A DNA stretch of 32,969 bases from NCBI GenBank assembly GCA_027047045.1, contig JALTWL010000312.1:1-32969 (forward strand). The letters are read 5' to 3'. Both the position numbers and the translations under genes were made by a program. Shown here in pieces: positions 16,818-23,423 of this stretch; the stretch's first letter is position 1, and each line of letters opens with the position of its first letter. The notes below the pieces were generated by a model. That model had not been told where the DNA came from, made no database searches, and worked only from the letters and a program-made list of their open reading frames with translations. This stretch comes from Micavibrio sp. (lineage in GTDB: Bacteria > Pseudomonadota > Alphaproteobacteria > Micavibrionales > CSBR16-224).

Positions 16818-17945
16818 TTACAATTTTCTTGCAAATTTAAATTCACGATGAATACGAACAGAAAGCATAAGCCCAAAACCAAATAAAACTGCAAGCATGG
16901 CAGACCCACCATTAGAAATCATAGGCAAAGGCACGCCAACAACGGGAATTAGCCCCATTACCATTGCAATATTTATAAAAACATATAAAGCAAAATTAAC
17001 CGTAATTCCAGCACAAACTAGTCTTCCATATTGATTATAGCTACTTCTAGCAATTAAAAATCCATAAGCTATAATTAGCGCTAATACAGTAAATATTCCA
17101 ATCCCTCCTAAAAAGCCCCATTCTTCAGCTAAAAGAGTAAAAATAAAGTCTGTTTGCTTTTCTGGTAAAAAATTCAAATGGCTTTGAGTGCCTTGCAAAA
17201 ATCCTTTTCCTTCAATCCCGCCAGAGCCTAGTGCTATTTTTGACTGCATAATATGATAGCCTGAGCCTAATGGGTCTTTTTCTGGATTCAAAAAAGTAAC
17301 AATACGCTGTTTTTGATAATCTTTTAATAAAAAATGCCAAATAAATGGTGCCACACTAATAGCAGAAGCACCAACCGCAGCAAACATCCAAAGAGGAACT
17401 CCAGCTAGAAAAAATATTGAACCAGATACCATAATAATTATTAGAGCTGTTCCCAAATCAGGCTGCATCAAAACAAGAGCTGCTGGAATTATTACCAATA
17501 TCAAAGGCCTTACTAATAAAAATGGATTTTTTACATTTTCTAAATTATAGCTATGAAATATGCGCGCAAGTGCCATAACTGTTGTTATTTTCATGACCTC
17601 AGATGGCTGCAACCTCATAAATCCAAGGTCAATCCATCTTTGCGCCCCCATACCTATATGACCTTTAAGCTCTACTGCAACTAACAATAATAAAGACACT
17701 ATATAAGCAGGATATGACAGCTTTAACCACCAACGAATATCAATAAAAGCCACAATTAACATACCACAAAAACCAGCAATAAATCTGACTAAATGCTTAA
17801 AAGCCCATGGCTGCCAACTGCCATTTGCAGCGGAATAAAGCGCAACAACACCAATTGTAGCTGTTAAAATTATCAATATGATAAGCCCAAAACTAAGCCT
17901 TGATAATTTTTGTTGAAATGTTAAATATTCTTTATTGTTAAACAT
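16818..17945 (-). CDS. rodA: rod-shape SEDS glycosyltransferase RodA
   Basis: This 375-residue polytopic membrane protein has about ten helices. SEDS-family signatures are G-x-x-R-W-I-D-L-G-F-M-R-L-Q-P-S-E-V-M-K, MQPDLGTALII, LPEKQTDFIFTLLAEEWGF and GVPLPMISNGGSAML. RodA polymerises glycan strands with PBP2 in the elongasome. The stop of mrdA lies 2 bp before its start, which indicates translational coupling. RodA rather than FtsW is supported by the neighbour mrdA and the chain mreC-mreD. Confidence 0.95.
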   Translation of the reverse strand: MFNNKEYLTFQQKLSRLSFGLIILIILTATIGVVALYSAANGSWQPWAFKHLVRFIAGFCGMLIVAFIDIRWWLKLSYPAYIVSLLLLVAVELKGHIGMGAQRWIDLGFMRLQPSEVMKITTVMALARIFHSYNLENVKNPFLLVRPLILVIIPAALVLMQPDLGTALIIIMVSGSIFFLAGVPLWMFAAVGASAISVAPFIWHFLLKDYQKQRIVTFLNPEKDPLGSGYHIMQSKIALGSGGIEGKGFLQGTQSHLNFLPEKQTDFIFTLLAEEWGFLGGIGIFTVLALIIAYGFLIARSSYNQYGRLVCAGITVNFALYVFINIAMVMGLIPVVGVPLPMISNGGSAMLAVLFGFGLMLSVRIHREFKFARKL

Positions 17946-17947
17946 AT

Positions 17948-19777
17948 CTAAATTCTAAGTGCAGGATTTCTTTCTTTTGTTTTAATTATTATATCTTTGG
18001 CAATTGGTGCTGCAGCCTTAGAGCCACTTCCACCATGTTCAACTATAACCGTACAGATATATCTTGGATTTTTAGTAGGAGCAAAGCCCGTAAATAAAGC
18101 ATGATGGCGATATTTCCAAGGTAGGTCTGAATTTTTAATTCCCTCAGCTCTTTGTTTTTTGGTTATTCTTCTTACCTGTGATGTTCCAGTTTTCCCCCCC
18201 ATTTGAAAGCCCTTATCAGTAATTTGTGAAGAATTAGCTGTTCCTTTCTTAGAATTAACAACATCAGACATACCCTTAATTACAAGTTTTAAATATTTTT
18301 TATTTAGCCCTAAATATTTATATTTTTTTTGTCTTGATTTTTTTCCATCAATAGAATGTATCAATGTTGGCTTAACGGCATAGCCACCATTTACCATTCT
18401 AGCTGTCATTGTCGCTAGCTGCAGTGGAGTTGTTTGAATATAGCCCTGCCCAATTGATGCAACTATGGTTTCCCCAATATGCCATTTTTGTCCAAACCGT
18501 CCCATTTTCCAGTGTTTATCTGGGATTAGCCCCGCTGCCTCTGAGGGGATTTCTATACCCAATTTTTGCCCAAGCCCCAATTTTCTTGCCATTTTAGCAA
18601 TTTTATCTATACCTACTTGCCTTGCAATATCGTAAAAGTAAATATCACAAGACTCAGCAAGTGCGGATATAACGTCTACTTTTCCATGTCCTGCGGCTTT
18701 CCAACAGTGAAATTTATCGCTACCAACTTCTATATATCCATTACAAACAACATTGTGCGAGGGCTTAATTATACCACTTTCAAAGGCAGCTAAAGCCGTT
18801 ACCATCTTAAAAGTAGATGCGGGTGGATATTGTCCAGATACTGTTTTATTTGTTAAAGGCTTGCCAGGATTAGATAAAAGTTCTTCCCATTGTTCCGCAG
18901 ATATTCCACGAGTAAATAAATTAGGGTCAAATGATGGGCTAGAGCTCATTGCATATATTTCACCAGTTTTTGCATCCATTACAACAACACAAGCACTTTT
19001 TTCTTGAGCCAGTCTGGTTTGGCAATAAATTTGTAACTCTGCATCAATAGATAGCTCAATTCTTTTACCATCATGCCCTTCTTTTCTAGATAGTTCACGT
19101 ATTTCTCGCCCAACTGCGTTAATTTCTACTTGAGAAATACCAACACTTCCGCGCAATATCTTATCATATTTTTTTTCGATACCTGTTTTACCTATTTTAA
19201 AGCCAGGTAAACTCATAATTGGCTCATCTGTGAGCTCAGCAGAATTCACACTCCCCACATATCCAACAATATGCGCGCTTGCCTCCCCCATAGGGTATGC
19301 TCGCACCCTACCCTCATCAATAGATATTCCTGCAAGATAGGGTAAATTAGCCTCTATTTTTGCAACTTGTTCCCAACTAAGTCCGTCCTTTATCATTACA
19401 GGAGTAAATGAACGTTTTCTTTTGATTTCTTTTTTTATCTTTTTTTCTTCTCTAATGCTAAGAGGAATAAAATCTCTAATTTTTTGTATTAATATATCAA
19501 CATCTTCTGCTTGTTCTGCTATCAAAAAAACTCTAAAATCTTGCTCATTTACAGCTAAAGGCACACCAAAACGGTCAGTAATTGAACCACGATTAACTGG
19601 TAAATATTTAACACCTATACGATTTTTATCCGATAAAGTTTTATAATGCTCCTTTTGAGTTACTTGCAAATAACCAAGTCTTGCCCCCAGCCCAATAAAA
19701 ATAGCTCCGTGCAAACCCCCAAGTAGTAGGCTACGTCTTGAAAAACGTTGATATCTTTCTAAATCACTTTTTGCCAT
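17948..19777 (-). CDS. mrdA: penicillin-binding protein 2 (elongation transpeptidase)
   Basis: This 609-residue class B PBP has a membrane helix at about 16-37, a pedestal/dimerisation domain (about 45-240, with NRGSITDRFGVPLA), and a transpeptidase domain (about 260-600). Active-site motifs are STFK with nucleophile Ser321, SCD at 376-378 and KTG at 529-531. It cross-links peptidoglycan during side-wall growth together with RodA. The SCD form of the second motif and the company of mreC, mreD and rodA identify it as PBP2, not FtsI. It starts 11 bp after the mreD stop. Confidence 0.96.
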   Translation of the reverse strand: MAKSDLERYQRFSRRSLLLGGLHGAIFIGLGARLGYLQVTQKEHYKTLSDKNRIGVKYLPVNRGSITDRFGVPLAVNEQDFRVFLIAEQAEDVDILIQKIRDFIPLSIREEKKIKKEIKRKRSFTPVMIKDGLSWEQVAKIEANLPYLAGISIDEGRVRAYPMGEASAHIVGYVGSVNSAELTDEPIMSLPGFKIGKTGIEKKYDKILRGSVGISQVEINAVGREIRELSRKEGHDGKRIELSIDAELQIYCQTRLAQEKSACVVVMDAKTGEIYAMSSSPSFDPNLFTRGISAEQWEELLSNPGKPLTNKTVSGQYPPASTFKMVTALAAFESGIIKPSHNVVCNGYIEVGSDKFHCWKAAGHGKVDVISALAESCDIYFYDIARQVGIDKIAKMARKLGLGQKLGIEIPSEAAGLIPDKHWKMGRFGQKWHIGETIVASIGQGYIQTTPLQLATMTARMVNGGYAVKPTLIHSIDGKKSRQKKYKYLGLNKKYLKLVIKGMSDVVNSKKGTANSSQITDKGFQMGGKTGTSQVRRITKKQRAEGIKNSDLPWKYRHHALFTGFAPTKNPRYICTVIVEHGGSGSKAAAPIAKDIIIKTKERNPALRI

Positions 19778-19788
19778 ATTTAATTTTT

Positions 19789-20340
19789 TTAAGGTTTGAA
19801 TTTAAGCAAGTATTTTAATTTATGAAATAACACAACAATAAACGGAAAAATCAAAGCCGTCAAAACAGCATTAACAATAGATGGCAAAAAATTAAATAAA
19901 TACCAATTAAAAATACTAATTGCCCACCATTCTAAAGTAAAAAAAATCAAACTAATTGTACCAAAAGAAAGCCAAATTACATTAAAATTTTGACCAAGTA
20001 GAAATTTTCTTTGGCTTTTTACTGTAATTGACATACCAATAAACAATATTGCGCTTATCCCAAAAGGAAGGCCAACGATTAAATCATATATAATCCCAAC
20101 AGAAAAAACTGCCCATATAGGTAGTAATTTGGGTATAAATAGTGATATATAAAAAATAGTTGCAATTAAAAAACTGGGGTGAACTTCACTAAATAAATGA
20201 TAGTCAAGTGAAACTATATCAAGCATAAAGAAAAGTAAAAATACACTATAAAATAAAATATGATAAAAATAAGACAGCAGCATATCAAAAGTAATTTTTT
20301 TATGTGAGTTTGAAAAATTATTAAATATCATAAGGCTCAT
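19789..20340 (-). CDS. mreD: rod-shape membrane protein MreD
   Basis: This 183-residue, strongly hydrophobic protein has five or six membrane helices and the MreD-like stretch LPIWAVFSVGIIYDLIVGLP followed by GISAILFIG. MreD is a membrane part of the elongasome with MreC. Sequence conservation in this family is low, so the position between mreC (12 bp) and mrdA (11 bp) carries much of the call. The N-terminal 20 residues, rich in Asn and Ser, precede the first helix. Confidence 0.9.
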   Translation of the reverse strand: MSLMIFNNFSNSHKKITFDMLLSYFYHILFYSVFLLFFMLDIVSLDYHLFSEVHPSFLIATIFYISLFIPKLLPIWAVFSVGIIYDLIVGLPFGISAILFIGMSITVKSQRKFLLGQNFNVIWLSFGTISLIFFTLEWWAISIFNWYLFNFLPSIVNAVLTALIFPFIVVLFHKLKYLLKFKP

Positions 20341-20352
20341 TTTTAAAAATCA

Positions 20353-21231
20353 CTATTCTATATTACCGTGTAAAAGCGCATCATTTATAAAAAAATCAAC
20401 AACCTTTACATATTCTGTTTGTTTTAAGTTATCCAGTGCCATTACTTGTATTTTTTCACTATCACTAGAAACTATTTTTCCAACAGGTAAGTTAGGAGGA
20501 AGCACTCCACCATCACCCGATGTAACCACTCTTGCCCCAATTTTAACCTTACTATCTAGCGGCATATGTTCTAAGGACATTATATTGGTATTGTTACCGC
20601 TAAGTATTGCTCTTGTTCTTGTATTTTCTATTGTAACTGGCAAGCGAGAGTTTAAATCTGTTATCATCAAAATGCGAGAGGCATTTTTACCCACTTCTAT
20701 CACTCTACCTATTAGAGCTTTTTTTCCAATTACAGCCTGTCCTTTTTTCACTCCATCTAGGCTGCCAATTGGTATCAATACGGTTTTAACAAAGTTACCG
20801 CCAGGGTCTGCGACTATTCTAGTTGATAAATATTTGTAATCTTGGGTAGCTTGAAAGTTAAGTAAAGATTTCAATCCTCTATTTTCTGCCTCAAGTTTAA
20901 GCGCTATATCATACCATTGTTGTAAACGCATATTTTCTTCTTGCAGTCTGATATTTTCTGCCTTTAAATCCCTAATATTTGCCACCCCCTCTATTTGTAA
21001 GGCTGCATTTTTAATCGGTGTTGATATCGTAGATAAAATAGGCGTAACCATATCTGTAAAAAAGACCCTAGCCTTTTCTATGGCGGGAGAGTTAATTTTA
21101 TGCAAAAAAACCCCAAGCAAAGCTATAACTATAAAAACTGCAGGCAATATTTTGGTAAATATTGCATGAATTGGCACAGATGATACTGCCACCTTTGGGT
21201 GTGCTGGTTTTATATTATTTCTATTAACCAT
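20353..21231 (-). CDS. mreC: rod-shape determining protein MreC
   Basis: This 292-residue bitopic protein has a membrane helix at about 27-47, a coiled coil at about 78-118 (L-K-A-E-N-I-R-L-Q-E-E-N-M-R-L-Q), and a beta-rich C-terminal domain with GSLDGVKKGQAVIGKKALIG and VVTSGDGGVLPPNLPVGKIV. MreC scaffolds PBP2 and RodA on the periplasmic side. mreB, normally directly upstream, is absent; rsmH precedes mreC by 122 bp. Confidence 0.95.
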   Translation of the reverse strand: MVNRNNIKPAHPKVAVSSVPIHAIFTKILPAVFIVIALLGVFLHKINSPAIEKARVFFTDMVTPILSTISTPIKNAALQIEGVANIRDLKAENIRLQEENMRLQQWYDIALKLEAENRGLKSLLNFQATQDYKYLSTRIVADPGGNFVKTVLIPIGSLDGVKKGQAVIGKKALIGRVIEVGKNASRILMITDLNSRLPVTIENTRTRAILSGNNTNIMSLEHMPLDSKVKIGARVVTSGDGGVLPPNLPVGKIVSSDSEKIQVMALDNLKQTEYVKVVDFFINDALLHGNIE

Positions 21232-21296
21232 AAATTTAAGTAACTCTTTTAGAAAGTATATTTATAATCATTTTACTTAAAAACTAAATGTAGATA

Positions 21297-21324
21297 GATA
21301 TACATTTTCTCTATTGATTGTAAA
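21297..21324 (-). promoter_or_regulatory. possible promoter for mreC
   Basis: In the 122-bp gap between rsmH and mreC, TTTACA (21324-21319) and TATATC (21302-21297) are separated by 16 bp on the minus strand, about 65 bp before the mreC ATG. It is the largest gap in the envelope cluster, so an internal promoter here is reasonable, but the match is weak in AT-rich DNA. Confidence 0.25.
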
Positions 21325-21353
21325 GCAAAAACTTATATAAATCTAATATTTTA

Positions 21354-22319
21354 TTAAACCATATTCTTAACACCCCACCGAAGGCGAGCAGAACGCGCTC
21401 TTGGATTTGCCTCTATTTCTTCATCTGTTGCTTTTATTGCTTTTTTATCTAGCAATTTAAAGCTAACATTTGGTTGTTTTTGACTATCAGATAAAATAGG
21501 AATATTTGCCTCTATACTGTGTCTTGAGCCTCTTGGGGTTAAACCTGCTTTTTCTCTGAAAAATCTTTTAACTATTCGCTCCTCTAGCGAATGGAAGGTA
21601 ACAACGACTAGCCTACCACCTGTATTTAATAATTTTTCTGCCCCGACAAGAGCTCTTTTTAACTCTCCTAGTTCATCATTTACAAATATTCTAATGGCTT
21701 GAAAGCTTCTTGTTGCTGGATGTATTTTATCTTTTTTGCTTGCGGGAAGTGCTTTTTCTATTAGATGCGCAAGCTCACCTGTGGTTGTAATTGAGGATTT
21801 TTTTCTTGCCTCAATTATTTTTCGTGCAATACGGCGAGAGCGCCTTTCTTCCCCATATTTATATAAAATATCGGCAATTTCTTCTTCTGAATATTCATTT
21901 ACAATATTATAAGCGCTAAGAGTTTGGCTTTTATCCATTCTCATATCAAGAGGACCGTCCTTTTGAAAAGAAAAGCCTCTGCCCTTATCATCTATTTGCA
22001 TTGAAGACACACCAATATCTAAAACTATGCCATCAATTTTATTTAAGTATTTATCCCCAACAAGCCCGTGCATATCACCAAAACAACCCCGAATTATAAT
22101 TAAACGTTCTTTATATTCTTTTTGCATTGCTTTGGCTTTTTTAATTGCTATGTCATCTCTGTCTATTGCAATTACAATATTGTTCTTGTCATTATCTAAA
22201 ATTGCCTTTGTATAGCCGCCAGCACCAAAAGTGCCGTCAATGAAAACCCCACCATTTGGTGATAATTTTTCCAAAACCTCCCTTAACATGACGGGGATAT
22301 GAGAAGGGCTTGCCAACAT
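21354..22319 (-). CDS. rsmH: 16S rRNA (cytosine1402-N4)-methyltransferase
   Basis: This 321-residue SAM-dependent methyltransferase modifies C1402 in the decoding centre of 16S rRNA. The N-terminus reads H-I-P-V-M-L-R-E-V-L, followed by motif I with GTFGAGGYT (29-37), then VLDIGVSSMQIDDKGRGFSF, DMRM and, near the C-terminus, RSARLRWG. It follows mraZ by 4 bp, as in the standard dcw cluster. The genes that usually come next (ftsL, ftsI, murE) are not there; mreC follows instead. Confidence 0.97.
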   Translation of the reverse strand: MLASPSHIPVMLREVLEKLSPNGGVFIDGTFGAGGYTKAILDNDKNNIVIAIDRDDIAIKKAKAMQKEYKERLIIIRGCFGDMHGLVGDKYLNKIDGIVLDIGVSSMQIDDKGRGFSFQKDGPLDMRMDKSQTLSAYNIVNEYSEEEIADILYKYGEERRSRRIARKIIEARKKSSITTTGELAHLIEKALPASKKDKIHPATRSFQAIRIFVNDELGELKRALVGAEKLLNTGGRLVVVTFHSLEERIVKRFFREKAGLTPRGSRHSIEANIPILSDSQKQPNVSFKLLDKKAIKATDEEIEANPRARSARLRWGVKNMV

Positions 22320-22323
22320 GGTG

Positions 22324-22776
22324 CTATTCCCTTGCTGGCGGGATTGTTAGCTTTTGTCTTTGTACGTTATCGCGCGCTTCTTGCAGGCGTTTTTGTAGCA
22401 TTTCTGGCTGCCATATTTGAAATTTCTGCCCCATACCAACAAAGGCGACTTTATCTGATAATTGACAAAATTCTCGCAAGTCTTCTGGCAAAACCACCCG
22501 CCCATCACTGTCAAACGGGAGCTGTCTTGCCTCTGCAAAAATTGAGGTGGCAAGGTCATCTTGACTATCAGAAAACAAGTCAAAATGGTCAAGTCTTTGA
22601 GCAATTTTTTCCATATCATCCATACCAAACCCTTCTAGAGAGTTATATTTTCTTGATTTAAATACAACAATTCCTTGAAAAGGATTACAAGATAAGGCAG
22701 AACGGAAATTAGCAGGCACAGACACTCTGCCTTTTGCATCAATTTTATTTATATATGTAGATAAAAATAAAGCCAT
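22324..22776 (-). CDS. mraZ: transcriptional regulator MraZ
   Basis: This 150-residue protein has two AbrB-like (SpoVT) DNA-binding repeats, each with the DxxxR signature: DAKGR at 13-17 (then VSVPANFR) and DSDGR at 89-93 (then VVLPEDLREF). MraZ assembles into a ring and binds short direct repeats with about 10-bp period near its own promoter, controlling the dcw genes. It is the first gene of the thirteen-gene minus-strand run. A 275-bp upstream region holds a hairpin (22812-22852) and a four-copy 10-bp repeat (22991-23030). Confidence 0.96.
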   Translation of the reverse strand: MALFLSTYINKIDAKGRVSVPANFRSALSCNPFQGIVVFKSRKYNSLEGFGMDDMEKIAQRLDHFDLFSDSQDDLATSIFAEARQLPFDSDGRVVLPEDLREFCQLSDKVAFVGMGQKFQIWQPEMLQKRLQEARDNVQRQKLTIPPARE

Positions 22777-22811
22777 ATCACCGCACTGTTAATTAACTAC
22801 CCAAATAGGCT

Positions 22812-22852
22812 GTATCCCCACAGGAGAAATTTTATTTCTCCTAAGAGGATAC
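22812..22852 (-). promoter_or_regulatory. strong two-part hairpin in the mraZ leader
   Basis: The outer arms GTATCC (22812-22817) and GGATAC (22847-22852) pair over 6 bp. A symmetrical 4x4 internal loop follows, then a perfect 9-bp stem AGGAGAAAT/ATTTCTCCT (22822-22830 and 22834-22842) with a 3-base loop. It ends 36 bp before the mraZ ATG. No T-run follows, so it does not look like a simple terminator. An overlapping shorter hairpin, TCCT-AAG-AGGA, could compete with it. The structure is read directly from the sequence; a regulatory role is inference. Confidence 0.6.
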
Positions 22853-22990
22853 GACCATATTCACAAGTAACTTCACTTATTTTCTGTCCACCCTAACTTT
22901 TTTATGTTTGGGGCTTTTTTTAATTTTCGCTTCAAAATTCCACAAAGCCTGAGATTATTTTTATTTTTTTTCGAATCTTCTATTAACTTC

Positions 22991-23030
22991 ATGGTATTAT
23001 ATGGTATAACATGGTATTGTATGGTAACAC
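22991..23030. repeat. four tandem 10-bp repeats (ATGGTA-N4)
   Basis: The hexamer ATGGTA starts at 22991, 23001, 23011 and 23021, exactly one helical turn apart. The four-base spacers TTAT, TAAC, TTGT and ACAC are AT-rich. It lies in the divergent region between mraZ (ATG 214 bp away) and the DUF1232 gene (ATG 21 bp away). Same-face spacing with four copies is the arrangement described for MraZ operators in other bacteria, though those have different cores (TGGG-type in E. coli, AAAGTG-type in mycoplasmas). Confidence 0.65.
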
Positions 23031-23051: not shown

Positions 23052-23423
23052 ATGTTTAAACGTTTAAAAGCATGGGTAGAAGAAGTAAAAAAAGATATAG
23101 CCGTCCTTTGGCTAGCCAGCAAAGATGAAAGAACACCTAACGGTGCGCATTTAATGTCTAGTATAGTACTTGCATATGTACTAAGCCCAATTGATTTAAT
23201 ACCAGATTTTATCCCAGTAATTGGTTATTTAGACGATGTGCTTATAATTGCCCTTGGAATTAAGCTAGCTATTAAGTGGATACCAGCAGAGCTACTTGCA
23301 GAATTTAGGGTTAAAGCTAAAGAAATTGCCCAAATGCCCAAAAGTTATAAAGGAGCATTTGTTATTATCCTAACATGGATATTATTTATATTGTTACTAG
23401 TAACTTGGCTAATGGAAAAATAA
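23052..23423 (+). CDS. DUF1232 (YkvA-like) membrane protein
   Basis: This 123-residue protein has the DUF1232 core at about 30-75: Y-V-L-S-P-I-D-L-I-P-D-F-I-P-V-I-G-Y-L-D followed by DVLIIALG. A C-terminal membrane helix spans about 98-118. The biochemical role of the family is unknown. TTGGAGAA forms the ribosome-binding site before the ATG at 23052. The four-copy ATGGTA repeat ends 21 bp before the start codon and could act on this gene. Confidence 0.88.
   Translation: MFKRLKAWVEEVKKDIAVLWLASKDERTPNGAHLMSSIVLAYVLSPIDLIPDFIPVIGYLDDVLIIALGIKLAIKWIPAELLAEFRVKAKEIAQMPKSYKGAFVIILTWILFILLLVTWLMEK

Follow-up and report, generated by a model that had tools for sequence, protein, structure and literature searches.

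A conserved box array upstream of mraZ as a putative MraZ operator interlocked with the mraZ promoter in Micavibrio-like Alphaproteobacteria

Four direct repeats of ATGGTA lying between the divergent mraZ and DUF1232 genes of a Micavibrio sp. genome very probably constitute an MraZ operator that is interlocked with the minus-strand mraZ promoter, as judged by comparing mraZ upstream regions across relatives. The window, by which we mean the whole 32,969-bp stretch of DNA that was analyzed (contig JALTWL010000312.1), contains this array at 22991-23026. The array sits roughly 215-250 bp ahead of the mraZ start codon, and its boxes are directed away from mraZ.

Results

The array and its flanking genes

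A first-pass annotation had claimed four exact copies of ATGGTA, and these were confirmed on the plus strand at 22991, 23001, 23011, and 23021, with an exact 10-bp period. No other array of this kind is present in the genome of 2,171,169 bases, and a second three-box array was absent even when two mismatches, or a free fifth base plus one mismatch, were allowed. Within the window, a two-box pattern with at most one mismatch gave five matches as compared to 0.26 expected.

The divergent flanking genes were likewise as annotated, with mraZ on the minus strand (22324-22776, ATG at 22776; PF02381, E = 2.5e-20) and the DUF1232 gene on the plus strand (23052-23423, ATG at 23052; PF06803, E = 2.1e-14). 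The 21 bp reported between the array and the DUF1232 start codon holds if counting begins where the last 10-bp unit ends; from the last ATGGTA, which ends at 23026, the distance to 23052 is 25 bp.

The presumed binder and autoregulator, MraZ, contains two MraZ/AbrB-type domains, matched by PF02381 in two stretches, with the D-x-x-GR-x-x-x-P motifs DAKGRVSVP and DSDGRVVLP, and it matches MraZ chains with solved structures. At residue 14 (window 22737-22735, minus strand), alanine, serine, or glycine is found in the window's genus and its sister genus, and lysine, arginine, or glutamine in most of the order. A covariation of this residue with an A preceding box 3 (4/7 versus 2/55, p = 0.0009) was considered and dropped, because several of the loci belong to one family and exceptions exist.

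Conservation of the array upstream of mraZ

The window's MraZ was used to search 55 related genomes, of which 32 gave a match, and 30 of the resulting loci were read. In relatives the array appears as CCAT boxes (ATGG when read on the other strand) that recur every 10 bp, and all 30 mraZ loci of these order relatives, which are Micavibrio-like Alphaproteobacteria, carry it 48-390 bp upstream of mraZ. A wider set combined the window with 80 named records, whose titles often read Micavibrio sp. or Alphaproteobacteria MAG and whose genomes partly overlap those of the first set. Here, a four-box score of at least 13/16 was reached by 76 of the 81 mraZ loci, as compared to 3 of 1600 shuffled upstream regions; of the low-scoring loci, at least L088 is truncated by a contig end.

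A strict pattern, CCATN6CCATN6CCATN6CCA, was then matched against 114 order relatives in which the presence of mraZ was determined by profile search. The array was present in 44 of the 72 genomes with mraZ and in none of the 42 without. Every one of the 51 places matched shares the strand of mraZ and lies 48-390 bp upstream of it. This presence pattern is without exception, and the associated Fisher p of 1.8e-12 overstates its strength, since kinship was left uncorrected. Of the 28 mraZ genomes lacking a strict match, those that were inspected do have arrays, in which a box is degenerate or absent. The 42 relatives with no mraZ match include highly complete genomes; one family (f3) has no genome among those matching MraZ, and mraZ was also not found in parts of another (f4).

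The first-pass annotation had proposed looking for the same repeat upstream of mraZ in relatives; across the order, the repeat keeps its place, its 10-bp period, its number of copies, and its dependence on mraZ. The fourth base of the box is T in all four window boxes and G in most boxes 2 and 3 of relatives, with TGG kept, and the nearest relative, from the same genus as the window, is intermediate, with TGGGA in box 1 and TGGTA in boxes 2-4. The earlier proposal of an MraZ box with a distinct core therefore stands in its first part, which the comparison supports well, while the core differs from TGGG by a single base (TGGT) and is not an unrelated sequence.

An mraZ promoter interlocked with the boxes

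To describe the promoter, 62 loci were anchored on an upstream TTGAC plus boxes; this anchoring selects TTGAC and CCAT, and not the GnTAT that follows. Read towards mraZ, these loci share the composite TTGAC-N3-CCAT-N6-CCATGnTATCCCAT, in which box 2 runs into CCATGnTAT[C/A]CCAT (n = 62) and TGnTAT represents an extended -10 element. In the -35 element, TTG is present in 62/62 loci, A in 57/62, and C in 55/62. The G, T, and A of TGnTAT are found in all 62, and its last T in 60. The spacer between the -35 and the extended -10 is 18 bp.

In the register of the TTGAC of relatives, the predicted -35 of the window's mraZ promoter is TTGTGT (23032-23027, minus strand), and the predicted extended -10 is TG-T-TATACC (23003-23011, minus strand), corresponding to the TGnTAT found in 60-62 of the 62 loci. 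From their placement, transcription of mraZ would start near 22996. By consensus, both the -35 (TTGTGT) and the -10 (TATACC) are weak, and a simple consensus scan of the window did not list the promoter, which counts against this reading.

Counted from the -35 towards mraZ, the first putative MraZ box (23021-23026, plus strand) adjoins the -35 and is CCA in most anchored loci, and the second (23011-23016, plus strand), in the promoter spacer, is CCAT in 62/62. The third (23001-23006, plus strand) overlaps the mraZ -10 and is CCAT in 61-62 of the 62, and the fourth (22991-22996, plus strand) aligns with the CCAT of box 4 in relatives. The boxes thus cover the spacer, the -10, and the start region, an arrangement most naturally read as repression by occlusion.

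The composite across the class

The query TTGACN3CCAN7CCATGNTATCCCAT was run, with at most two mismatches, against 142 genomes of the class. Twenty-five genomes gave a single match each, as compared to none for the reversed control, and the ten places inspected using an MraZ profile test were all in front of mraZ. The promoter-operator composite alone thus locates mraZ in many families of Alphaproteobacteria. The window itself is unmatched by this query because its core and -35 differ, which makes it a divergent member.

The two 20-bp halves of the window's array are alike, as might be expected if slippage had generated a short tandem repeat without function. However, the boxes are kept from species to species although the spacers change, and their 10-bp phase is maintained throughout the order and class. 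Conservation contradicts such an origin, which was rejected as having next to no likelihood.

The DUF1232 side

Because the repeats are directed towards DUF1232 and lie near its start, they could instead be read as an operator for that gene only, bound by another regulator, and control of DUF1232, in place of mraZ or alongside it, had been raised in the first-pass annotation. However, the window and the same-genus relative are the only cases in which DUF1232 adjoins the array, and an adjacency limited to one genus cannot explain the conservation. The family's genus g2 has secG and pyrG on the divergent side, the array stands without DUF1232 at dozens of mraZ loci, and no array accompanies the DUF1232 relatives found elsewhere (G002, G006, G008). 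This reading is contradicted by the comparison of relatives and was rejected as highly improbable.

A DUF1232 promoter may nevertheless be held within the MraZ operator in this genus, with MraZ repressing both sides. This two-way arrangement would add to the MraZ operator reading, and we entertain it as a tentative possibility. The DUF1232 start is 25 bp from the last box, and the T core makes each box TGGTATnnT, a possible extended -10 towards DUF1232, as seen in the window at TGGTATTAT, TGGTATAAC, and TGGTATTGT. In the same-genus relative, the nearest to the window, a perfect extended -10, TGGTATAAT, is directed towards DUF1232. A weak candidate promoter towards DUF1232 (22983-23010, plus strand) consists of TTAACT, 16 bp, and TATAAC with a TG in front, an extended -10 identified by consensus match only. 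Against the arrangement, the T core also occurs in relatives with secG as the divergent gene and so did not arise only for DUF1232, the plus strand is without a good -35, and consensus matches are common in AT-rich DNA. A more specific proposal, which we regard as rather unlikely, is that the change from TGGG to TGGT in this genus let the operator also serve as several extended -10 elements for DUF1232, creating a two-way MraZ-controlled promoter through which DUF1232 joined the MraZ regulon.

Genes behind mraZ

On the minus strand at 16818-22776, mraZ and rsmH are followed by mreC, a probable mreD, an mrdA-type transpeptidase gene, and an FtsW/RodA-family gene, in place of ftsL-ftsI. The probable mreD of the window scores below the Pfam cut-off. 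With these genes located behind mraZ-rsmH, cell-elongation genes may be under MraZ here. In another genome (G003), the genes behind mraZ-rsmH appear, as read from the sequence, to be a short ftsL-like frame and a transpeptidase gene. The same-genus relative (L073:2992-4862) has no rsmH behind mraZ within the 2.2 kb examined and has a convergent 470-aa frame instead, and its array is kept. That the array is kept where mraZ lacks its usual neighbours suggests that autoregulation is its conserved role.

The mraZ leader

The position of the promoter predicts an untranslated mraZ leader of about 220 nt (22777-22996, minus strand). A strong hairpin lies within it (22808-22856, minus strand; about -29 kcal/mol by local folding), with no clean U tract. 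In three members of the family (G001, G002, and G005; loci L073, L072, and L006), a similar place is taken by hairpins of -23 to -24 kcal/mol that precede T runs and resemble terminators. The wider signal is modest, with 15 of 75 leaders passing a terminator filter as compared to 12 of 225 shuffles, and a comparison of the leader with Rfam gave no credible match.

Discussion

In the proposed mechanism, an MraZ ring would touch the DNA along a single face, meeting one box at each helical turn, and in doing so would cover the spacer, the -10, and the start site, keeping RNA polymerase away. MraZ would thereby hold down transcription of mraZ itself and of the downstream genes, namely rsmH and probably mreC-mreD-mrdA-rodA. 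The fourth box base would have gone from G to T in this genus, and the cognate MraZ should tolerate T. Exact candidate MraZ sites are now available in Micavibrio-like bacteria, and the natural variation in box core, orientation, and position can be used to probe how the MraZ ring reads DNA.

Long mraZ leaders with a terminator were reported, among the species examined in 2016, only in Rhodobacteraceae (PMC5089854). The UpsM leader of Rhodobacter sphaeroides is a long mraZ leader with an intrinsic terminator (PMC5089854), and the leaders of three relatives of the window resemble it in layout; the window's own hairpin differs from the UpsM terminator in having no clean U tract. The window's family may represent a second, perhaps independent, case of long terminator-bearing mraZ leaders.

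No description of this alphaproteobacterial operator was found in the literature searched, which included neither subscription papers nor regulon databases, and an earlier prediction may exist. Operators of the same general kind are found in other bacteria. In E. coli K-12 (b0081), three boxes, TGGGaaattg TGGGgcaaag TGGGaataag, have their TGGG at 292, 302, and 312 of locus L152, 20-43 bp ahead of the mraZ ATG. The E. coli and window arrays both lie upstream of mraZ and repeat a TGG core with a period of exactly 10 bp. While the E. coli boxes point to mraZ from a position downstream of the -10, those of the window are directed away from mraZ and overlap the region from -35 to -10, a difference that counts against the operator reading, and the fourth box base is G in E. 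coli and T in the window.

The MraZ of Burkholderia cenocepacia binds a fragment with four 7-nt repeats separated by 3-nt spacers, which its authors think are read by an octameric ring (PMC7761207). Four repeats and a 10-bp period are thus common to this site and the window. However, the B. cenocepacia site is located downstream of the -10, over the start site, and the motif sought by its authors was a repeated GTG (PMC7761207). For Mollicutes, PMC8475190 cites Fisunov 2016 for an MraZ site composed of AAAGTG[T/G] direct repeats in the mraZ promoter, and describes the M. genitalium repeats as occurring nowhere else in the chromosome. On that account, the Mollicutes and window sites are both direct repeats within the mraZ promoter, whereas their core sequences differ. 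The site is of a known kind; what is new, as far as the searched literature shows, is its layout in Alphaproteobacteria and its TGGT core.
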